NCBI GenBank assembly: GCA_029262375.1
Contig: JAJCZM010000039.1
Location: 1-64,000 of the forward strand
Source of the DNA: Deltaproteobacteria bacterium
GTDB lineage: Bacteria; Desulfobacterota; Binatia; UBA1149; SPBQ01
Reading direction: 5' to 3'
Length of the DNA: 64,000 nt
Shown one piece after another: positions 10,946-29,103 of the stretch (the first letter of the stretch is position 1; the number at the start of each line of letters is the position of its first letter). The notes below the pieces were generated by a model, which saw nothing but the letters and a program-made list of their open reading frames with translations, was not told the origin of the DNA and did not search any database. A program made the translations under genes and the position numbers.

Positions 10946-11508
10946 AGCGCTACGTCGAAATGGCGCGTGAAGCGTTGACGGCAGCACTCGGTCGCCTCAA
11001 TCCTCGAGAGCGGCGCCTCGTCGGCATCTTCAGCGCACTAGCCGCAGTAGCGTTCCTCTACGTCGGCATCATCGAACCCATCGTCGAGCAGCGCACACGC
11101 ATGGAGCGTCGCATCGAGACCCTGTCGGGCGATCTGGCTCAGCTCCAAGCATTGGCGGGCCGAATCCGCCGGCTCGAGGGCGAACTCGGTCAGAAGACGG
11201 CACCGACCAATGCCAGCAAAGATTTCTCGCTGTTCTCGTTCATCGATAAGGCGACGTCCGCGTCGGTTGCTGCGGATGCCGTGGCATCGATGAATCCCAC
11301 GCGACGCAGACTGCCGGAGGGCAACGAAGAACATTCGGTCGAACTACGGCTTCAGGATATTGCACTCGGTGAACTCGTAGGCCTGCTGCGCCAAATAGAG
11401 CTCGCCGACGAGCCCGTCTACATCAAGCGATTGGACCTGCAGCGTCGCTACGACGACCGCACGCGCTTCGACGCTACCATCATCGCCGGAGCCGTTGCCG
11501 CAACATGA
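10942..11508 (+). CDS. gspM: Type II secretion protein GspM
   Basis: This 188 aa bitopic protein has a short cytoplasmic N-terminus with the NPRERRLVGIF motif seen in GspM/PilO-like proteins, one membrane segment (about residues 27-45), a coiled coil (about 47-80) and a small periplasmic domain. GspM stabilises GspL. It starts at GTG 10942 inside the gspL stop and ends in an ATGA overlap with gspN. Confidence 0.82.
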   Translation: MKRYVEMAREALTAALGRLNPRERRLVGIFSALAAVAFLYVGIIEPIVEQRTRMERRIETLSGDLAQLQALAGRIRRLEGELGQKTAPTNASKDFSLFSFIDKATSASVAADAVASMNPTRRRLPEGNEEHSVELRLQDIALGELVGLLRQIELADEPVYIKRLDLQRRYDDRTRFDATIIAGAVAAT

Positions 11509-12374
11509 AGCGGACTCTCGCCTTCGTGGCGTTACTGATCGCCTTTGTTTTCTGGACGTTCCCCCACAGGATGATCGTCGAGCGAGCGCTGTCGAATCGA
11601 CTCGGTGGAACAGGCGTGGCGTATTCGATTGATGAGATCTCTTGGGCGTGGCCTGTCGGCTACCGGCTCGACGGCGTAACGCTCGGAACCGCGACCTACT
11701 CCACCAAGCTGGATTCGCTATGGATGGGGCTGGGAATCTTCTCACGCCGTTTGGACTTCGAAGCCGCAGGTTGCGGGGGGCAACTCGAAGGAAGTATTGA
11801 CGGCGATCCGCAAGGGCGCCGGCTCTCCGTAGTTTTCTCCGACATCGATCCCTCTTCGTGTGCCCGACTCGACGCACTCGTGGTCGGTGGACGGATCGAC
11901 GGAGCTCTCACGCTAGCGGGACTAGGCGGCGGCCAACGCACGGGCGTTCTCGGGCGCACCGCAGCGAGCGGAACCATAGAGGTCAACGCAAACGGCGGTA
12001 CGGTCTCGGGGCACCTGCCGTCGCGTGCGCCGGCCAAAGCCGATGGCACACCTACGGGTCTTGCGATTGGCTCCTGGGAATTCAACGACGCGCACCTCAA
12101 AGCCCACGTCAACGATGGCAACGATCTCGTGGTCGACACGTTTACGGCACGGGCCGAGGGCGTCGAATGGCGCGTTGCTTCCGGCTCGCTCCTCGGCGGA
12201 CAGGGCGGTCGCGTCGGCGTGAACGCATCGATGGAAGCGAGACGGCTCGACGAATCGGGACGATCGAAAGCAATCATCGGTTTGCTCCCAAAAGCCGGCG
12301 AGAACGATCAGGGGTGGCGACGCTATCGGCTCTCGGGAACGCTCGACGCACCGAAAATCATCGGACTGCGCTAA
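11505..12374 (+). CDS. gspN: Type II secretion protein GspN
   Basis: This 289 aa protein has an N-terminal signal anchor (MKRTLAFVALLIAFVFWTFP) and an AsmA/GspN-like beta-rich periplasmic body. GspN occurs in a subset of type II systems; its exact role is not settled. It is the last gene of the operon. Its TAA (12372-12374) interleaves with the stop codon of the convergent receiver-LpxC gene, so there is no room for a terminator between the two operons. Confidence 0.75.
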   Translation: MKRTLAFVALLIAFVFWTFPHRMIVERALSNRLGGTGVAYSIDEISWAWPVGYRLDGVTLGTATYSTKLDSLWMGLGIFSRRLDFEAAGCGGQLEGSIDGDPQGRRLSVVFSDIDPSSCARLDALVVGGRIDGALTLAGLGGGQRTGVLGRTAASGTIEVNANGGTVSGHLPSRAPAKADGTPTGLAIGSWEFNDAHLKAHVNDGNDLVVDTFTARAEGVEWRVASGSLLGGQGGRVGVNASMEARRLDESGRSKAIIGLLPKAGENDQGWRRYRLSGTLDAPKIIGLR

Positions 12375-13636
12375 CCGAGTTCCAACTGCTGGCTAAGCAA
12401 ACGGACCAGCTCGACGTTCTGCCCATGCCCGGTCTTGCGCGCATGGACGCGGGCGCGCAACGGCCTTCCTAGCAGGTACAGATCGCCCAGCATGTCGAGG
12501 ATCTTGTGACGCGCAAGCTCTTCCGGGAAGCGCAGCTCGGTATTCACGATCCCCTGCTCTCCGATGAGAATGAAGTTGCTGAGCTGACCGCCCTGGCCGA
12601 GCCCTGCCGTCTCGAGTGCACGGATCTCTTCGACGAAACCGAAGGTTCGAGCCGGCGCGATCTCCGCGCGAAACGCGTCGGCATCGCTCAGAACGAACGT
12701 ATACGTCTGCTCGCCGACCGGATCTGGGTAAGACAACTCGTAGGTTACTTCGAGATGATCGCAAGGACTGACACGAAGAAATCGATCATCATCAAATTCG
12801 AGACCAAACTCGCGATCGGGTGCGGCGACCGGCATCGAAGCGTCTTGATCAACGACACCGACGGAGTCGATCAGCGCGCAGAACTCAGCGGCGGAGCCGT
12901 CTAAGATAGGCACCTCGCCCTCGACCTTCACCAAGAGATTGGTGATTCCGTACGCATGCAACGCCGACAATAGGTGCTCAACCGTGCGGACCGAGAAGCC
13001 ATCCTTGTGTAGCGACGTCGCATATCCTGTTGAATCTACATTGGACACAACCGCAGCGATCGACTGCTCGCTCCCCACACGACCGAAACGAATACCGCTA
13101 CCCGGCGGGAGCGGAAGCAGAATCAGCCCGGTACGCACGCCGCTGTGCAATCCGAGACCGCTGCCGACCACACTCTTCGCGATCGTGCGCTCGACAACAC
13201 GCGGTGCGTCAGTAGGCGCGCGATCGGCGGCCGTCACTCCGGCTGGAGCCGACTTGACCGGACCACTCTCGCCCGCAGGATTCAGTGCACGTCCGACGCT
13301 GCTCAGCAGGCCGTCGATCGAGAACGGTTTCTCGATAAAATCGACCGCTCCGAGACGCGTCGCTTTCACCGCCATTTCGACGTTTCCATGCCCCGACAAC
13401 ACGATGACCGGGAGCGAGGCATGGCTCTGCTTGATGCGCGACAACACTTCGATGCCGTCCAGCCCCGGCATCCACACATCGAGAAGCACCAGGCCCGGAT
13501 CGCAGGCGTCGACGCAGCCAAGCGCTTCCGTTCCGTCAGCCGCCGTGACGACCTCGTAGCCTTCGTCACGAAGCACACCGCCGATGGAATCACGTACGCG
13601 CGAATCGTCGTCTACTACAAGAATGGTCTCGCTCAT
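12371..13636 (-). CDS. lpxC: Response-regulator receiver domain fused to LpxC deacetylase
   Basis: This 421 aa fusion joins two complete domains. Residues 1-118 are an NtrX-like receiver: acidic pocket Asp9/Asp10, phospho-acceptor Asp53 (LVLLDVWMP), Ser81 and Lys103 (DFIEKPF). An Ala/Pro linker (119-145) leads to LpxC, which removes acetate from UDP-3-O-acyl-GlcNAc in the first committed step of lipid A synthesis. All catalytic residues expected from E. coli LpxC are present: Glu220 and His221 (TVEH), His377 and Asp381 (RHKILDMLGD), and His404 (KTGHG). The NtrX AAA+ and DNA-binding domains are absent. Its ATG overlaps the stop of the upstream histidine kinase by four bases, so the two are very likely partners. 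I infer that phosphorylation of the receiver changes LpxC activity or stability. No other LpxC is in the window. Confidence 0.95.
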   Translation of the reverse strand: MSETILVVDDDSRVRDSIGGVLRDEGYEVVTAADGTEALGCVDACDPGLVLLDVWMPGLDGIEVLSRIKQSHASLPVIVLSGHGNVEMAVKATRLGAVDFIEKPFSIDGLLSSVGRALNPAGESGPVKSAPAGVTAADRAPTDAPRVVERTIAKSVVGSGLGLHSGVRTGLILLPLPPGSGIRFGRVGSEQSIAAVVSNVDSTGYATSLHKDGFSVRTVEHLLSALHAYGITNLLVKVEGEVPILDGSAAEFCALIDSVGVVDQDASMPVAAPDREFGLEFDDDRFLRVSPCDHLEVTYELSYPDPVGEQTYTFVLSDADAFRAEIAPARTFGFVEEIRALETAGLGQGGQLSNFILIGEQGIVNTELRFPEELARHKILDMLGDLYLLGRPLRARVHARKTGHGQNVELVRLLSQQLELG

Positions 13637-15882
13637 GCGTCGGCCTCGGGCGCTCCGTCGGGGAACTCCAGCGCGAAGCGGATACCATGGGGCTCTACGT
13701 CGTGTAATCGCAAGTAAGCGTGATGATCGGCGGCAATCGACGCGACGATCGCAAGCCCGAGGCCCGTCCCTTCCGACTTGGTCGAGAAGTAAGGCTCGAA
13801 GACGCGGGCGCGGTACTCTACTGGAATACCCGGGCCGCGATCACTGACCTCGAGCACGACGCGAGAAAGAGCCGCTTCGTGTCGCGTACGCACCATGACA
13901 TGCGGAGCGTCTCCGCCACCGTTCGCGCTCGCCCCTACCGACGCAACGGCATTGTCGATGAGGTTCACCAGAACGCGCTTGATGCTGTCTCGGTCCATCA
14001 CCACACTCGGCAGATCGGCGGCAAGTTCGGCGACAATGCGTAAATCCGGGCGCGACTGCGTGTAGAGCGGCATGGTTTCTTCGACGAGCGCATTGAGATC
14101 GTGCGGTCGCTTCTCGGAGCTCGTTTGGCGCGCAAACGTCGAAAATTCATTGACGAGATTCTTCAAGCTATCGACCTCGTTGACGATCGTCGATGTACAC
14201 TCGTCTAGCAGGGCGGCGTCATCGCCATCGAGGCGATCCTTGAGTCGGCGTTGCATTCGCTGGGCGGACAATTGGATTGGTGTGAGCGGATTCTTGATCT
14301 CATGCGCAATCCTGCGCGCGACTTCACGCCATGCTTCCATGCGCTGAACCTGAACGATCTGGGAAACGTTTTCTATGAACAGCACGTAGCCGGAACTCTC
14401 GCCAAGTTCGCCTTCCAGGCTGGTCACCGTCACCAACAGCGTGCGCGCCTCGTCCTCACGCTGGACGTTCAGCCGAGTCCCGGAAGGCACTTCGCCACGC
14501 TGAAGTTCACGCAGCAGCGACGCAACCTCCGGATAGCCCGATTCGTCGAGCACGGCCGCAGCGTCGCGACCAACCAGTGCATCGGCCGTCAGTCCCAGCA
14601 GCGATGTAACGGCGGCGTTCACTGTCGATACGTGCCCGTGCTCATCGACCGACAACACACCCGCATCGATATTATGGACGATATTCTCGATGTAGCGGCG
14701 GCGCTCTTCGAGCGTCGCATGGCTGGTCTTGAGCTCCGCCGTCATCGAATTAAAAGACTGCACGAGCGTTCCGATTTCGTCGCCGCCGACCTCTTCCAGC
14801 CGAACGTTCCAGTCGCCTTCGGCTACGCGTTTGGTCGCCGCCACAACATTAGCGAGCGGTTCAGTGATCCCCTTGGCTAGGTATAGCCCCAGCCAGGTAG
14901 CCGAGAAGATGACCACCAGCGAAGCCAGCGCCATCGTGAGAACATAGAGGTTCTTGAACGGCCGCTTGTTGAGTTTGAGCGAACGATAGTCCCGGAACGC
15001 TGCGAGGATTTCGTCACTCCAAAGCCGAGGACTGCGGTCGACCAGCAGATCGACCACCACCATGCCGATAATGTCGTCGCCGTTGGCTACAACCGGCGCG
15101 GCGCCACGAACGACATCGCTCTCGCCTAGCGACTCCACGCGGGTCGCGTCGTTGCCGTCGAGTATGAGTCCTAGAAGCTCGCGATCGGCGCCGAGCGGCA
15201 CACCGGTCGGGGTCGACTCGCTGAATACCGTGACGAGTTCGCTCGAATCGCGCCTGATCACTTGGATGGTCCCTAGGCCGTACGCGGCCTGGTACGACGC
15301 GATCTTCGCCTTCAGTGCATCGTTCGCTGTCGCCGGCAGTGTTCCTTCGGCGGTGACGAGCTGGTCCGCCAACGCGCGCGCGTGAGCCAGCGAGTCGTCA
15401 CCCGCTTGTTGATAGTACGTCTGTGCCAACTGCCAGGCTCCACGCAGCGCTCCCTCGACCTCGGTATCGAACCATCCGTCGATCGCGTTCGTGCTGAACT
15501 CCAGCGACAGCAACAACATCACGACAGCCGGAAAGGAAGCAATCGTCACGAACGCCATCACCATGCGGCTGCGGAGTTGCGCCCCCGGAAGCTTCAAGCG
15601 CCACTCGAAATACAGCTTCAGCAGATTGCGAACGACCAGAAAGACGAGCAGCAACAGCAGCACGACGTTCAAGTTCACGATGAGGAAAGAGAAGACGTTG
15701 CCGGCGGCGCCGTCAGCCGCCCCCGGACGACGAATCTCCCAAAGCGCGAAAACGAATACGGCAAGACCAGCCGCTACGATGAGCGCGGCTTCGCGGCGAC
15801 GACGGGAGCGTTCCTCGTCGGTCATCGGCGTAAGGCCGCCGTCCGACTTCTTCTCGCTCTCGCTACTGCCTGCAGTGGCCAC
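13633..15882 (-). CDS. NtrY-like membrane sensor histidine kinase
   Basis: This 749 aa kinase has two close N-terminal membrane helices (about residues 30-85), a third near 105-130, a periplasmic sensor region, a fourth helix near 315-335, then HAMP, PAS, HisKA and HATPase_c domains. The phospho-accepting His527 lies in IAHEIKNPLTPIQ, the NtrY-type H box. The ATPase shows the N box (VNLIDNAVASVGA), DRGPGIP and GTGLGLAI. The architecture is that of NtrY, whose usual partner is the regulator NtrX. Here the overlapping downstream gene keeps only an NtrX-like receiver, joined to LpxC. The stimulus is unknown; the large periplasmic loop makes an envelope signal plausible. Confidence 0.9.
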   Translation of the reverse strand: MATAGSSESEKKSDGGLTPMTDEERSRRRREAALIVAAGLAVFVFALWEIRRPGAADGAAGNVFSFLIVNLNVVLLLLLVFLVVRNLLKLYFEWRLKLPGAQLRSRMVMAFVTIASFPAVVMLLLSLEFSTNAIDGWFDTEVEGALRGAWQLAQTYYQQAGDDSLAHARALADQLVTAEGTLPATANDALKAKIASYQAAYGLGTIQVIRRDSSELVTVFSESTPTGVPLGADRELLGLILDGNDATRVESLGESDVVRGAAPVVANGDDIIGMVVVDLLVDRSPRLWSDEILAAFRDYRSLKLNKRPFKNLYVLTMALASLVVIFSATWLGLYLAKGITEPLANVVAATKRVAEGDWNVRLEEVGGDEIGTLVQSFNSMTAELKTSHATLEERRRYIENIVHNIDAGVLSVDEHGHVSTVNAAVTSLLGLTADALVGRDAAAVLDESGYPEVASLLRELQRGEVPSGTRLNVQREDEARTLLVTVTSLEGELGESSGYVLFIENVSQIVQVQRMEAWREVARRIAHEIKNPLTPIQLSAQRMQRRLKDRLDGDDAALLDECTSTIVNEVDSLKNLVNEFSTFARQTSSEKRPHDLNALVEETMPLYTQSRPDLRIVAELAADLPSVVMDRDSIKRVLVNLIDNAVASVGASANGGGDAPHVMVRTRHEAALSRVVLEVSDRGPGIPVEYRARVFEPYFSTKSEGTGLGLAIVASIAADHHAYLRLHDVEPHGIRFALEFPDGAPEADA

Positions 15883-15888
15883 GGCGAT

Positions 15889-16968
15889 CTAAGACTCGAA
15901 CAGGCCCTGCTGATCGCGGTCGGGGCGATTCGGCTTGATGCCGAAATGGGAGTACGCGCCGGCGGTGGCCACTCGGCCTCGCGGCGTGCGTTGGATGAAA
16001 CCGAGTCTCAACAGGTAGGGCTCGTAGACTTCTTCCAGTGTGCCGGCGTCTTCGCCCAGCGAGGCCGCGAGCGTATCGAGACCGACAGGACCACCGTCAA
16101 ACTTCTCGAGGATCGCGAGCATGAGTTGGCGGTCCATTGCATCAAACCCCAGCGAATCGACGCCGAGCATCTCGAGCCCATCGGCAACAACCTTGGTGGT
16201 CACGACTCCGGTTGCTTTGACCTGCGCGTAGTCACGCAGGCGCCGTAGTAAGCGGTTCGCGACCCGCGGGGTACCGCGCGAGCGTCTCGCGATATCGTGC
16301 GAGGCAGGGGTGTCCACATCGACTTCCAGCAAACCGGCGGATCGTGTCAGGATCGCAGCGAGTTCGTCGTCCTCGTAGAACTCCAAGCGGAACGTGTACC
16401 CGAATCGAGATCGCAGCGGCGCGGTGAGCAATCCCGACCGTGTAGTAGCCGCGACCAAAGTGAACGGACTGAGTTCGAGCGAGATCGTTCGCGCAGCCGC
16501 GCCTTCGCCGACCACGAGATCGATACGTCCGTCTTCCATCGCTGGATACAAAATCTCTTCGATGGCCCGCCCCAGCCGATGAATCTCGTCGATGAAGAGC
16601 ACGTCTCCGCTTTCGAGCGAGGTCAGGATTGCGGCCAAATCTCCCGCTTTCTCGATCACGGGGCCGCTGGTCTGATGAATTCGCACACCCATCTCGGCCG
16701 CAATGATGTGGGCCAGCGACGTCTTGCCGAGCCCGGGCGGACCGGCGAGCAGCACGTGGTCGAGTGTTTCCGAGCGTCCTCGCGCGGCCTGGATCGCAAT
16801 ATCGAGATTCTCGCGAACGCGGGTCTGCCCCACATATTCCTCGAGCCGCTTGGGACGTAGGCTGACTTCGCCCGCGATTTCTTCTTCGGCGGGTAGCGGA
16901 CTCACCGCGTCTAGTGCGTCCATCACATCCATGGCGTCCATTCCATCTTCGGACTCGGTCTCGATCAC
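15889..16968 (-). CDS. ruvB: Holliday junction helicase motor RuvB
   Basis: This AAA+ motor (359 aa) drives branch migration of Holliday junctions with RuvA. Walker A is GPPGLGKT (residues 76-83), Walker B is in [11 protein letters not shown], and the winged-helix C-terminal domain ends the protein (RTPRGRVAT). An acidic N-terminal extension of about 30 residues is longer than in E. coli. The GTG start overlaps the ruvA stop (GTGA). Six bases separate its stop from the histidine kinase, so the two-component pair is probably cotranscribed with ruvCAB. Confidence 0.97.
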
Positions 16969-17546
16969 GACAGTCGTACCAGTGAAGTTTTGATCAGTGT
17001 CTCGATACTCTCACCCGCGTCTTCCATACTTGCGCTCACCGCTTTGCGTGCCTGTGGTTCCTTGTACCCCAATGCCATGAGCGCCAACACCGCGTCGCTT
17101 TCGATTTGTGTGGATGCGCCTGCGCCTGAGGCGTCGGCTCCGGCAATCTCGACACGATCCTTGAGGTCTACAACGATCCGTTCCGCCGTTTTGCGTCCGA
17201 CGCCCGGAATTGCCACCAGCCGATCCACGGCGCCGCTACCGACGGCTTCGACGAGCGCGGCCGGTTCGAGTCCCGAAAGCACCGCCAGCGCCAGACGCGG
17301 GCCGATGCCGGACACCGTCCGGAGCAGAGTGAAGAGCGTGCGTTCTCGACGATCGTGAAACGCGAACAACTCGAGCGCGTTGTCTCGAAGATTCGTGATG
17401 ACGAAGAGGCTGACCTTTCCGCCTTCGTCTGGAAGTCTACAGAAGGTCGTGACCGAAACGGCGGCGCAGTAGCCCACTCCACCCACGTCTACGACGACCT
17501 CACCGGGCGATTTCTCGTCTAGAATTCCTTTTAGTTTCGCTATCAC
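16965..17546 (-). CDS. ruvA: Holliday junction recognition protein RuvA
   Basis: RuvA (193 aa) binds the four-way junction as a tetramer and loads RuvB. The OB-fold N-terminal domain ([20 protein letters not shown]), two helix-hairpin-helix motifs ([15 protein letters not shown] and [13 protein letters not shown]) and the C-terminal RuvB-binding domain are all present. It starts two bases after the ruvC stop and overlaps ruvB by four bases. Confidence 0.97.
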
Positions 17547-17548
17547 GG

Positions 17549-18190
17549 TCAGGTTCCGCCGCGCGGCTTGTCTCGTACGGCGCCGCGGCTCTTCTGCGCC
17601 GCGGTCTTGCGCAGCGCAGCCTTCTCCAGGGCGGCTTTCGCTACCGCCGCAAGGCCACCGCCACGACGTGCGCGCAGGGGCGTTTTCGCGCCGGGCCTAC
17701 CGAGAGCGCTCGCGACTTTGCCATCATAGCCGCTTCGCAGCGCGTAGCACGCCGCGGCCGCAAGGGCGTCGGCTTCATCCTCACCGGGCATCTCCGTGAG
17801 ATTGAGCAGTCGCACCACCGCCTCCTGCACGTCCAGCTTGCCGGCACGCCCGTGGCCGACCACGGCCTTCTTGATGGTGGCGGGAGAATATTCGGTGATC
17901 GGTACCGCACCGGCGGCGACCGCCGCCATGATCGCGCCGCGCGCTTCGCCCAACCTGAAGGCGCTTTGCACGTTGCGAGAGACGAAGTTGCGTTCGAGGC
18001 TGACCGCACTCGGGGCGTGCTGGGCTACGATCTCGACGATGTCTCGATGGATGTGCGCGAGGCGGCTCGCCAGCTCACCATTGCCGACCTTTAGTACGCC
18101 GGACGCCACGCGGACGAGCCGCTTACCCGAGATATCGATAATGCCCCAGCCGGTGAGCCGGGTTCCGGGATCGACGCCTAGAACGCGCAA
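17549..18190 (-). CDS. ruvC: Holliday junction resolvase RuvC
   Basis: RuvC (213 aa) cuts Holliday junctions. The RNase H-like core has Asp7 in LRVLGVDPGTRLTGWG, a Glu in SLERNF and acidic residues in GEDEADALAAA. TTG at 18190 is preferred over the upstream in-frame TTG at 18208 because AAAGGAGG lies five bases before it and the family normally begins MRVLGIDPG. A basic Ala/Lys/Arg-rich tail of about 50 residues extends beyond the usual end; it may add DNA affinity. First of the ruvCAB set; yebC lies upstream. Confidence 0.95.
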   Translation of the reverse strand: MRVLGVDPGTRLTGWGIIDISGKRLVRVASGVLKVGNGELASRLAHIHRDIVEIVAQHAPSAVSLERNFVSRNVQSAFRLGEARGAIMAAVAAGAVPITEYSPATIKKAVVGHGRAGKLDVQEAVVRLLNLTEMPGEDEADALAAAACYALRSGYDGKVASALGRPGAKTPLRARRGGGLAAVAKAALEKAALRKTAAQKSRGAVRDKPRGGT

Positions 18191-18195
18191 CCAGT

Positions 18196-18203
18196 CCTCC
18201 TTT
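18196..18203 (-). promoter_or_regulatory. Strong Shine-Dalgarno sequence of ruvC
   Basis: AAAGGAGG on the minus strand sits five bases before TTG 18190 and decides the ruvC start against the longer reading frame from 18208, which would place this site inside the coding region. Confidence 0.85.
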
Positions 18204-18331
18204 CGCAACCGCCGTGCGGATGCTTACAGCCACTTCCGCTGCCGCCACGCGCATTGCGCAGCCGGCCCCGTCTCATGCTCGGCTCCTCGGCTACGACCCA
18301 GGCTCAGCCTGGATGAAATCCATACGTCCGT

Positions 18332-19081
18332 TCAGCCGAAGATCGCGCTGAGCTCGTCGTCGTCGATATCGAAATTCGCCGACACGCGCTGAACATCGTC
18401 GTGCTCTTCGAGTGCATCGAGCAACTTGAGAGCGGTGGAGGCATCGGAACCCGCCAACGAGACAGTACTCTTGGGTTCAAGCACCATCTCCGCACTCTCG
18501 ATCTCGAATCCAGCCTGTTCGCATGCACGCCGCACATCTTCGAGCCGCTCGGTCGGTGTGACCACGAGGACCGCGCCGTCATCGTTTTGAACGTCGTCGG
18601 CACCAGCCTCAGCCGCTACTTCGAAGACGGCGTCTTCCGAAACGCCCTCACCACCGATGCGTACATGCCCAACACGATCAAACATGAAACCGACGCAGCC
18701 GTTCTCACCCAGGTTCCCATTGTATTTCGAAAACAGGTGACGAACATCTGCGACCGTTCGGTTCTTGTTGTCGGTCATGGCTTCGATCATGACCGCCATA
18801 CCGCCGGGCCCGTAGCCCTCGTAGGTGAGTTCGAGAATCTCGGCCCCTTCGAGTTCGCCGGTTCCCTTCTTGATCGCCCTTTCGATGTTGTCGCCGGGCA
18901 TGCTTTGCGACTTGGCAGTGCTCACCGCCGTTCGCAGCCTCGGATTGGCTTCGATGTCGCCGCCGCCCATACGCGCCGCAACGGTGATCTCCTTGATCAG
19001 CTTCGTAAAAAGTTTACCGCGCTTGGCATCCTTCGCCGCTTTCTTGTGCTTGATGGATGACCACTTGGAATGTCCCGACAT
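18332..19081 (-). CDS. yebC: YebC/PmpR/TACO1-family protein
   Basis: This 249 aa protein begins MSGHSKWSSIKHKKAAKDAKRG, diagnostic for the YebC family. The three-domain fold is complete and of normal length. Family members act as DNA-binding regulators (PmpR type) or as ribosome-associated factors that help translate proline stretches (TACO1 type); which applies here cannot be told from sequence. It lies directly upstream of ruvC with a 141-base gap in which I see no further gene. This yebC-ruvCAB order is widespread. Confidence 0.95.
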   Translation of the reverse strand: MSGHSKWSSIKHKKAAKDAKRGKLFTKLIKEITVAARMGGGDIEANPRLRTAVSTAKSQSMPGDNIERAIKKGTGELEGAEILELTYEGYGPGGMAVMIEAMTDNKNRTVADVRHLFSKYNGNLGENGCVGFMFDRVGHVRIGGEGVSEDAVFEVAAEAGADDVQNDDGAVLVVTPTERLEDVRRACEQAGFEIESAEMVLEPKSTVSLAGSDASTALKLLDALEEHDDVQRVSANFDIDDDELSAIFG

Positions 19082-27825: not shown

Positions 27826-29103
27826 ATGCTTCGCAGAATTGCAACAGTCATAGCCGCAGTAGCCCTGATCGGTGCAGTCTGCACGCAGGTTTACTTCAAC
27901 GCCCAGGAAGCAACGTTCAGGCTAACGCCGGACCACACGTTCACCCTTCCGCTCGGCGTACTCATGCTGGCCTCGCTAGTCGCGGGCGCTCTGTTCATGT
28001 TCCTGATCACCCTCGCTCGTGAAGGTCGCCACGCACTGAGCGATTGGCAGGTCCAGCGCGAGAAGCGTGTCGAGGAACGCAATATCGAACACCGCCGACA
28101 GGCCCGATCGCTGTCGCTGGCCGGCGACTATCAGCGTGCGCGTACGCTGTTCGCCAAGGCCGCAAAGCGCCGCGCCCCCGATGTCCTCGACGTCATCGAC
28201 TATGCAGGGACCTATCTAGTGGAGGGTCGGGCCGATGAGGCACGGCGCATGCTCGAAGAAGGTCAGAAAGACTTCGGCAACGACCCGCTTCTGCTCGCTG
28301 CGCTCGCGCGCGCTTGCTCGGGGTGTGGAGACACGGCCGCTGCAATCAGTGCACTCGAACGCGCGCTGGCCGTCTATCCGGCGAGCGTAGAGATCCTCAA
28401 GTCACTGCGGGACCTTTTGTTCGACTCTGAGTCGTGGGCTCGTGCCGTCGAGGTCCAACAACGCATCGTAGAACTGACGAGCCAAGACGAAACCGAGCGG
28501 CGTCGCTTCGCCGGCGCCAAGTTCGAAGCCGCCATGCGTCTGGAAGGCAGCGAGCGCGAAGCAGCGCTGCGCGCGCTGAGCGGTACCGACCCCGACTTTG
28601 TCCCGGCGATCATCGAGCGATCGCGCGCTCTCGCCGCCGCCGACGATGGCAAGCAGGCTTTCAAGGTCCTCGAGAAGGCGGCGAAACGACGTCCCCACAC
28701 GGCCATACTCGACGGACTGGAGGCGCTCAGCGGATCTGATCAGGTCGCGCGCATGACCAAGCTCTATTCGAAGCTGGTCGTGGCCTTTCCCGAAGACCAG
28801 CCACTACGCCTACGATCCGCCGCGTATCTGTTGTCGGCCGATCGCGCCGAGGACGCCGCCAAGCTCCTCGATGGAACGCCGGGCGACGGCGCTGCTAAGT
28901 ATGCGCATCACGCGCTGACTGCGAAGGTCCATGCCGCTCGAGCAGAACCCGATATGGAGCAAGCATCCTATCGTGACGCCGTTGTTTCGAATCCGCCCGG
29001 TGCGAACGATCTGCGTTGTGGCGATTGCGGGCGGCGTGCGATGGACTGGACCGCACGTTGCGGGCACTGCGGTAGCTGGAACTCGATCGACACTGCGGCG
29101 TAA
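27826..29103 (+). CDS. LapA-LapB fusion: two-helix anchor, TPR array, rubredoxin-like zinc site
   Basis: This 425 aa protein joins what are two genes in E. coli. Residues 1-65 form a LapA-like (DUF1049) hairpin of two membrane helices (about 5-23 and 42-63). Residues 75-380 are a tetratricopeptide array as in LapB/YciM. The C-terminus has the LapB rubredoxin-like metal site with Cys398, Cys401, Cys412 and Cys415 (CGDC, ten residues, CGHC). In E. coli LapB brings LpxC to the FtsH protease and so limits LPS synthesis, and LapA is its neighbour. Here the fusion follows rsfS after 40 bases. Its role in LPS control is inferred from homology. The array looks shorter than in E. coli LapB. Confidence 0.82.
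   Translation: MLRRIATVIAAVALIGAVCTQVYFNAQEATFRLTPDHTFTLPLGVLMLASLVAGALFMFLITLAREGRHALSDWQVQREKRVEERNIEHRRQARSLSLAGDYQRARTLFAKAAKRRAPDVLDVIDYAGTYLVEGRADEARRMLEEGQKDFGNDPLLLAALARACSGCGDTAAAISALERALAVYPASVEILKSLRDLLFDSESWARAVEVQQRIVELTSQDETERRRFAGAKFEAAMRLEGSEREAALRALSGTDPDFVPAIIERSRALAAADDGKQAFKVLEKAAKRRPHTAILDGLEALSGSDQVARMTKLYSKLVVAFPEDQPLRLRSAAYLLSADRAEDAAKLLDGTPGDGAAKYAHHALTAKVHAARAEPDMEQASYRDAVVSNPPGANDLRCGDCGRRAMDWTARCGHCGSWNSIDTAA

Follow-up and report, generated by a model that had tools for sequence, protein, structure and literature searches.

Within a 64,000-nucleotide stretch of contig JAJCZM010000039.1 (assembly GCA_029262375.1, class Binatia, phylum Desulfobacterota; hereafter the window), we identified a two-gene locus that is probably a two-component system with the lipid A enzyme LpxC itself as the response regulator. 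The first gene (positions 13633-15882, minus strand) encodes a 749-residue NtrY-like membrane sensor histidine kinase. The second (12371-13636, minus strand) encodes a 421-residue protein, REC-LpxC, in which a receiver domain (REC) of the NtrX type is fused to LpxC. We consider it likely that NtrY phosphorylates LpxC directly and that the fusion arose from the regulator NtrX. LpxC commits the cell to lipid A and is an antibiotic target. A receiver domain within this enzyme would, if its role is confirmed, place a phospho-switch directly on the committed step in lipid A synthesis outside the enterobacteria.

We examined the domain content of REC-LpxC, which a sequence-only reading of the window had described as a complete NtrX-like receiver fused in frame to a complete LpxC. 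Pfam placed both domains in a single reading frame: Response_reg at residues 5-113 (13298-13624; PF00072, 7.6e-32) and LpxC at residues 150-414 (12395-13189; PF03331, 9.8e-81), the latter scoring 271.6 bits against a cut-off of 27. REC-LpxC also passed the curated LpxC equivalog TIGR00325 (227.8 versus a cut-off of 187.25 bits); ordinary annotation would therefore probably call the fusion LpxC, and the receiver could escape remark. The NCBIfam model for the bifunctional LpxC-dehydratase, NF009667, matched below its cut-off. The top curated match of the receiver was NtrX (1.1e-40), far below the full-length cut-off of that model, and the nearest solved receivers by sequence were 4d6x (titled a Fis-family protein) and 5m7n (titled a nitrogen assimilation regulatory protein), both of which we take to be Brucella NtrX. 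The sigma54 AAA+ and Fis-type DNA-binding domains gave no Pfam match in the window REC-LpxC, so the protein is derived from NtrX and is not an NtrX. Kinase specificity is set by receiver helix alpha1, and this helix retains the NtrX pattern. Across the short fusions (REC-LpxC forms), receivers averaged 48.5% identity to NtrX receivers versus 33% to three other enhancer-binding receivers.

The individual residues singled out by the sequence-only reading were all in place: D9, D10, D53, S81 and K103 in the receiver, E220, H221, H377, D381 and H404 in LpxC, and H527 in the kinase. The receiver pocket (D9, D10, D53 and K103) was unchanged in 58 of 58 aligned fusions, including the predicted phosphorylation site Asp53 (codon at 13478-13480, minus strand), and position 81 was Ser or Thr in 57, with Cys in L076. 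The five LpxC residues, presumably the zinc ligands and catalytic residues of the enzyme, were likewise present in all 58; the residue counts for fusions (58) and kinases (30) do not include the later loci L240-L269. By family match and residues, the LpxC part is a predicted deacetylase. An AlphaFold2 model of REC-LpxC gave two confident domains separated by a linker (residues 120-148; 13193-13279, minus strand) with low confidence at 123-138, and its LpxC part overlaid the solved Aquifex LpxC with a TM score of 0.95 by target length. In the short forms, this linker varied between 21 and 66 residues between the aligned parts.

We then turned to the partner kinase. NtrY_N (28 bits against a cut-off of 23.2), HAMP, PAS, HisKA and HATPase_c all scored over their Pfam cut-offs. 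The predicted phospho-accepting His527 (codon at 14302-14304, minus strand) lies in an HEIKNP box; it and the N- and G-box residues were found in 30 of 30 kinases beside fusions. The kinase and REC-LpxC genes share four bases (13633-13636), the kinase stop running into the REC-LpxC start, as had been noted from the sequence. The kinase lay immediately upstream of the intact fusion in all 24 mapped loci of the class, a count that leaves out L094 (G057), where the fusion is broken by the contig end.

A receiver followed by LpxC beside an NtrY-like kinase, which the sequence-only reading had suggested looking for in other genomes, proved to be the rule in the class. One match covering receiver and LpxC was found in 54 of the 58 nearest genomes. 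In a class draw of 127 genomes, 119 gave a match at E<=1e-60; the match ran from residue 5 or earlier to residue 404 or later in 114. Of the five partial ones, G057, G395, G401 and G415 were truncated by the end of a contig, and the fifth was G398. With the full fusion in 114 of 127 genomes, we rejected an assembly or frame artefact, or chance, as an explanation. ORF (open reading frame) length was dropped as proof of fusion because open frames mislead in GC-rich DNA, and we relied on matches spanning both domains together with receiver checks in the loci. PF03331 was found in 120 of the 127 genomes, once in 119 and twice in G420. G038 (99% complete) and G041 (96%), both class members, gave no LpxC match, through either an assembly gap or a true loss.

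That the fused enzyme might be a second, specialized LpxC beside an essential stand-alone one is very improbable: both forms do occur together in G103, G258, G344, G420 and G683, but the class genomes with LpxC carry a single match with the one exception just given, and the only PF03331 match in the window assembly (4.8 Mb in 59 contigs, 87.4% complete) was the fusion, with no stand-alone lpxC elsewhere in it.

In a draw of 297 genomes from the phylum, 281 matched at E<=1e-28, and 68 carried a fused LpxC: 36 contiguous REC-LpxC, two divergent ones (G258 and G300), 14 REC-AAA+-LpxC, 15 with a long linker (REC-long linker-LpxC) and one truncated where its contig ends. For the last three groups, the receiver was confirmed in the fetched loci (for G168 through L117, CP070817.1). 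Strong matches at about residues 112-420 were at first candidates for stand-alone LpxC, and the fetched loci showed them to be REC-AAA+-LpxC or REC-long linker-LpxC. In the other 229 genomes, no best E fell below 1e-61; the majority were not opened, and weak matches there may be receivers alone. The fusion was also present in nine of 297 genomes of a second phylum (that of L118, record Terriglobia), where no NtrY adjoined it in five mapped loci (L264-L268). A scan of named genomes returned fusions in at least two of 80 loci among the matches listed (L117 and L118).

We also compared the NtrX content of genomes with and without the fusion. An NtrX query over 39 genomes separated two groups, with 526-592 bits in ten and <=436 bits in 29. 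Besides all eight stand-alone genomes, the ten high scorers included G258 and G331, and all 29 low scorers carried the fusion. Over the 297 phylum genomes (presence thresholds of E<=1e-135 for NtrX and E<=1e-60 for the kinase), NtrX orthologs were found in 3 of 68 fusion genomes versus 203 of the 229 others (Fisher 4e-40, with kinship ignored). NtrY, by contrast, was retained in 66 of 68 (absent from G288 and G293) versus 199 of 229; the lists of fusion, NtrX and NtrY-less genomes were compiled by eye from the result tables. The window assembly itself held no NtrX ortholog, its best score being 383 bits versus 526-592 for true orthologs, and seven matches to the NtrX query at E<=1e-100. Nor does ntrY stand beside ntrX in the window; REC-LpxC occupies that place. 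Among 18 genomes in which the fusion lies apart from the kinase, no NtrX was found near the NtrY gene in 16, the exceptions being L222 (G331, with NtrX) and L223 (G258, with a stand-alone lpxC). The stretch behind the kinase ends within 1 kb in L217, L219 and L234 and within 1.3 kb in L229, and the whole-genome NtrX search covers these. Adjacency in every mapped class locus, an NtrX-type receiver, an NtrY-type kinase, intact residues in both, and NtrY kept while NtrX is lost bear out the pairing of the kinase with REC-LpxC, which is well supported by this comparison of genomes.

The same exchange is visible within families. In family f42, G083, G230, G253 and G334 have the fusion without NtrX, and G119, G153, G180, G206, G275 and G315 have NtrX without the fusion. 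Family f63 shows the same contrast, one genome against five, as does f25 (G066, G103 and G138 with fusion and no NtrX versus G167 and G195 with NtrX and no fusion). Two families depart from this contrast: in f98, G331 carries the fusion and NtrX together, and in f48, G258 does so as well, with its congener G300 having just the fusion. In f42, the gene order of G206 is ruvA-ruvB-lpxC-DUF4390 gene-ntrY-ntrX-Ser/Thr kinase with PEGA, and in G315 and G275 lpxC, ntrY and ntrX follow ruvB in that order. G083 has ruvB, a DUF4390 homolog, ntrY and a homolog of the Ser/Thr kinase, without lpxC or ntrX, and carries REC-LpxC on another contig. No lpxC was found by tblastn in the stretches from G083, G230 and G253 (the last ending 0.6 kb behind ntrY). 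In G230, a relic of ntrX lies right behind ntrY, its match limited to the C-terminal 54-67 residues of NtrX, at 57-65% identity (tblastn). Judging from six loci of this one family, lpxC and ntrX seem to have become dispensable through the fusion, with ntrY retained. The Ser/Thr kinase with PEGA (L236:8925-10646) stands behind ntrX, and its homolog persists behind ntrY where ntrX is gone; it might be part of the same envelope circuit. On balance we favor, less firmly than direct phosphorylation of LpxC, a wider reading taken as a whole, namely that the fused gene passed from family to family, reached a second phylum and, in at least one family, displaced lpxC and ntrX and took over a resident orphan NtrY.

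Whereas the fusion itself was already apparent from the window, its spread through the lineage, the lpxC-ntrY-ntrX neighborhood of relatives and the REC-AAA+-LpxC forms lay beyond the view of the sequence-only reading. Of 22 stand-alone phylum loci fetched (L095, L096 and L197-L216), seven have lpxC just before ntrY-ntrX (L202, L203, L204, L207, L208, L211 and L216), and L215 shows the kinase only. The same order was seen in at least five of 78 stand-alone loci from named genomes among the matches listed (L120, L123, L126, L137 and L151), these genomes being by title mostly proteobacteria outside the phylum of the window, and in L269 from the second phylum. In L156 (Desulfonema magnum) and L167, a kinase follows lpxC, and the 2.1-2.8 kb available beyond the kinase contain no NtrX. 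Counting distances in 67 stand-alone genomes (those of the 229 with both coordinates printed), lpxC and NtrX were on one contig in 34 and no more than 6 kb apart in 32. In these 32, NtrX was always downstream on the same strand, at 2.2-3.5 kb in 30, leaving room for ntrY. This agrees with the arrangement published for S. fumaroxidans, in which the operon of the DVU2934 ortholog lies directly downstream of lpxC (PMC3333781).

The fourteen REC-AAA+-LpxC genomes (INTERMEDIATES) encode a receiver, a sigma54-type AAA+ domain with its lid and then LpxC. This architecture was called by Pfam in five, including L078, and by homology of the AAA+ part in the rest. In L078 (G158), the receiver and AAA+-LpxC occupy separate ORFs where its near relative L077 has a single gene, through a frameshift, a sequencing error or a real split; L078 was counted as a fusion. 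The GAFTGA loop, a sigma54 motif, was found in none of the 14 genomes. Of 12 NtrX proteins encoded next to stand-alone lpxC, 10 carry it as GAFTGA or GSFTGA, the two without it being those of L137 and L151. A helix-turn-helix-like segment ahead of LpxC, judged by eye, was kept in eight of nine inspected forms (L085 lacks it). From these features, we read REC-AAA+-LpxC as a whole NtrX fused to LpxC, its transcription part apparently decayed. If so, the series lpxC-ntrY-ntrX, REC-AAA+-LpxC and REC-LpxC would show a transcriptional circuit collapsing into one protein.

In phylogenetic trees, the sampled fused LpxC domains separated from the stand-alone ones. In a quick tree of 93 LpxC domains, one branch parted 51 fused from 42 stand-alone enzymes (SH-aLRT, the Shimodaira-Hasegawa-like approximate likelihood ratio test, 100), and a careful tree of 58 of those rows recovered the same split (bootstrap 100, SH-aLRT 99, in 100% of 200 bootstrap trees). 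The quick tree drops the near-duplicate or split fusions L058, L060, L062, L070, L078, L093, L104, L108 and L112 and 58 of 100 stand-alone ORFs; the receiver tree drops the same rows, except that L078 is kept; neither the LpxC nor the receiver trees contain any of loci L240-L269; and the kinase tree drops L058, L060, L062 and L070. The fused LpxCs thus form one group, and since the root was not inferred, a single origin is permitted by this tree and not proved. Fused receivers clustered with NtrX receivers, apart from other receivers (support 94, from few columns), and the 20 class kinases formed one group (support 99).

We propose the following mechanism, in which we infer the phosphotransfer, its effect on LpxC and the direction of that effect, the signal and the order of evolutionary steps. 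The NtrY-like kinase in the inner membrane would sense an envelope signal and autophosphorylate at His527, and the phosphate would pass to Asp53 of the LpxC-fused receiver. The receiver switch would then alter LpxC output without a transcription step, whether through the activity of the enzyme, its stability, its dimer state or its place at the membrane. The role of NtrX would thereby have passed to LpxC, giving NtrY control of lipid A synthesis. As to origin, many relatives have ntrX just after lpxC and ntrY, and this regulator gene would have fused to lpxC; the sigma54 AAA+ part would later have decayed and then been deleted, leaving receiver and enzyme. The invariant receiver pocket, the conserved catalytic residues of the kinase and the NtrX-like alpha1 all fit a working phosphotransfer.

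Several observations weigh against parts of this proposal. The AlphaFold2 model (predicted TM score, pTM, 0.69) leaves the arrangement of the REC and LpxC domains undefined. The receiver tree, built on few columns, places NtrX receivers within fused ones, so it does not show a single fusion. The REC-AAA+-LpxC forms nest within the short forms in the LpxC tree, which would need several losses of AAA+ or a regain, and the kinases beside REC-AAA+-LpxC (and that of L098) join the NtrY of stand-alone loci, not the class kinases. Beyond the class, fusion and kinase are often not neighbors; in 20 genomes searched for NtrY (G145 being an adjacent control), one match was found in 19 and none in G288, and G293 is also without NtrY. 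Three of the genomes with a fusion also pass the NtrX threshold: G331, which has a full NtrY-NtrX pair alongside a sole, fused LpxC; G258, which has NtrX and a stand-alone LpxC besides the fusion; and G104 (2.3e-136, at the threshold). Moreover, 26 of the 229 non-fusion genomes also lack NtrX. Finally, the window also encodes a LapA/LapB-like protein, and LpxC may therefore be under additional control. As to G331 (L102 and L222), its NtrX contains GAFTGA, and this genome is possibly a recent acquisition of the fusion caught ahead of NtrX loss.

An unlikely alternative is that the receiver acts on stability only, deciding whether a protease, either Lon or FtsH with a LapB-like adaptor, can reach LpxC, and so standing in for the C-terminal degron. 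The C-termini of fused LpxCs indeed end 14-28 residues past the last TGH/SGH-type motif in 60 of 60 measured, 17 residues beyond His404 in the window protein, versus 36-61 residues in 77 of 83 stand-alone LpxCs measured (17 unmeasured). These short C-termini may make an E. coli-type degron less likely in fused LpxCs. Short tails also occur without a receiver, in six stand-alone LpxCs: L095 and L197 (16 residues each), L215 (22), L204 (27), L138 (30) and L212 (32), and tail loss as a hallmark of fusion thus holds only in part. L095 (G140) and L197 (G068), of family f27, are long-branch LpxCs whose genomes have no NtrY match. A candidate adaptor is encoded about 14 kb from REC-LpxC (27826-29103, plus strand), a 425-residue protein with a LapA-type membrane domain over cut-off, a tetratricopeptide repeat region and a weak LapB zinc ribbon under cut-off; a LapB-LpxC complex has been solved (8v24). 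A search with the LapB zinc ribbon family PF18073 was uninformative and was dropped as a sign of LapB: it matched 18 of 29 relatives but also 10 of 14 controls, Gram-positives included. Many such matches may, we assume, be RadA. Control of stability is, besides, a special case of control of LpxC by its receiver.

A further alternative is that the receiver is a relic of NtrX, or a structural module for dimerization or solubility, that exerts no phospho-control over LpxC. The model fixes no REC-LpxC interface, the linker is variable in the short forms, and L076 has Cys at the Ser/Thr81 position, all of which speak for this alternative. A scaffold would not, however, need D9, D10, D53 and K103 in every fusion, nor does it sit well with the retained NtrX alpha1 pattern or with the near-constant presence of NtrY, and near-absence of NtrX, in fusion genomes. 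We therefore regard a relic or module as improbable. Still less probable, in our judgment, is a receiver that feeds back on the kinase, whereby NtrY, by binding REC-LpxC, would sense substrate or place and pass its signal mainly to another regulator. NtrC-family regulators are plentiful enough for this, as the seven strong matches in the genome of the window attest, but that genome has no NtrX ortholog and, G331 excepted, no NtrX-like regulator stands directly beside the kinase in the mapped fusion loci.

Direct phosphorylation of LpxC by NtrY, the reading that we prefer, can be compared with known systems. In Rhodobacter sphaeroides, loss of NtrYX raised lpxC mRNA 8.8-fold and about doubled lipopolysaccharide; the effect on lpxC mRNA was called indirect, with no NtrX site at lpxC (PMC7240162). 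That system shares its kinase family, receiver type and target enzyme with the window pair, but its regulator is a DNA-binding protein acting on mRNA, whereas in the window the DNA-binding and AAA+ parts are missing and the receiver is covalent to the enzyme. The D. vulgaris regulator DVU2934, whose single target is lpxC (PMC3333781), shares that target, and we compare it as a regulator of lpxC and not as an assigned NtrX ortholog. In Myxococcus xanthus, an envelope polysaccharide pathway begins with EpsZ, an enzyme that phosphorylated EpsW stimulates post-translationally (PMC12802240). As predicted for the window, a phosphorylated receiver there acts on its enzyme after translation; unlike in the window, EpsW stands alone as a single-domain protein, its target is a phosphoglycosyl transferase and a chemosensory system provides the input (PMC12802240). 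As to direction, NtrYX restrains lpxC in two alphaproteobacteria (PMC7240162, PMC12444477), and by analogy phosphorylation may lower LpxC output; phosphorylated EpsW, by contrast, activates its enzyme.

Fusion of a receiver to the enzyme it controls, as proposed here, is familiar from CheB and from diguanylate cyclase response regulators, whose outputs are signaling or protein-modifying; LpxC is instead a committed-step biosynthetic enzyme. In this sense REC-LpxC belongs among the enzyme-output response regulators, as a variant whose evolutionary trail is unusually clear. Control by LapB, YejM and FtsH in E. coli is post-translational, as we propose for REC-LpxC, but works through degron-guided proteolysis without phosphorylation, and the fused LpxCs have a shorter tail. 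The bifunctional LpxC-dehydratase (NF009667) also joins LpxC to another domain, its partner being a second biosynthetic enzyme and not a receiver. A 2025 review states that details of LpxC control in other systems "are still emerging" (PMC12444477), and a term search of a 2026 review of LpxC control (PMC13333357) found no mention of response regulator, two-component, receiver or fused. We noticed no report of a receiver-LpxC fusion in the literature searched, which lay mostly outside subscription journals and preprints. Overall, our analysis suggests direct control of an enzyme by a signal, instead of control of gene expression, in a large bacterial group.

Upstream of the kinase in the window, on the minus strand, lie yebC, ruvC, ruvA and ruvB (15889-19081), giving the order yebC, ruvC, ruvA, ruvB, kinase, REC-LpxC, with a gap of six bases between the ruvB and kinase ORFs; ruvB was found in 19 of 24 mapped class loci. 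These six genes are perhaps one transcript. On the plus strand, the third gene of a gspL-M-N-like run (11505-12374) converges on REC-LpxC with a four-base tail-to-tail overlap. The L and N genes of this run are named by position: Pfam backs T2SSM, supports L weakly and gives no match for the third gene.

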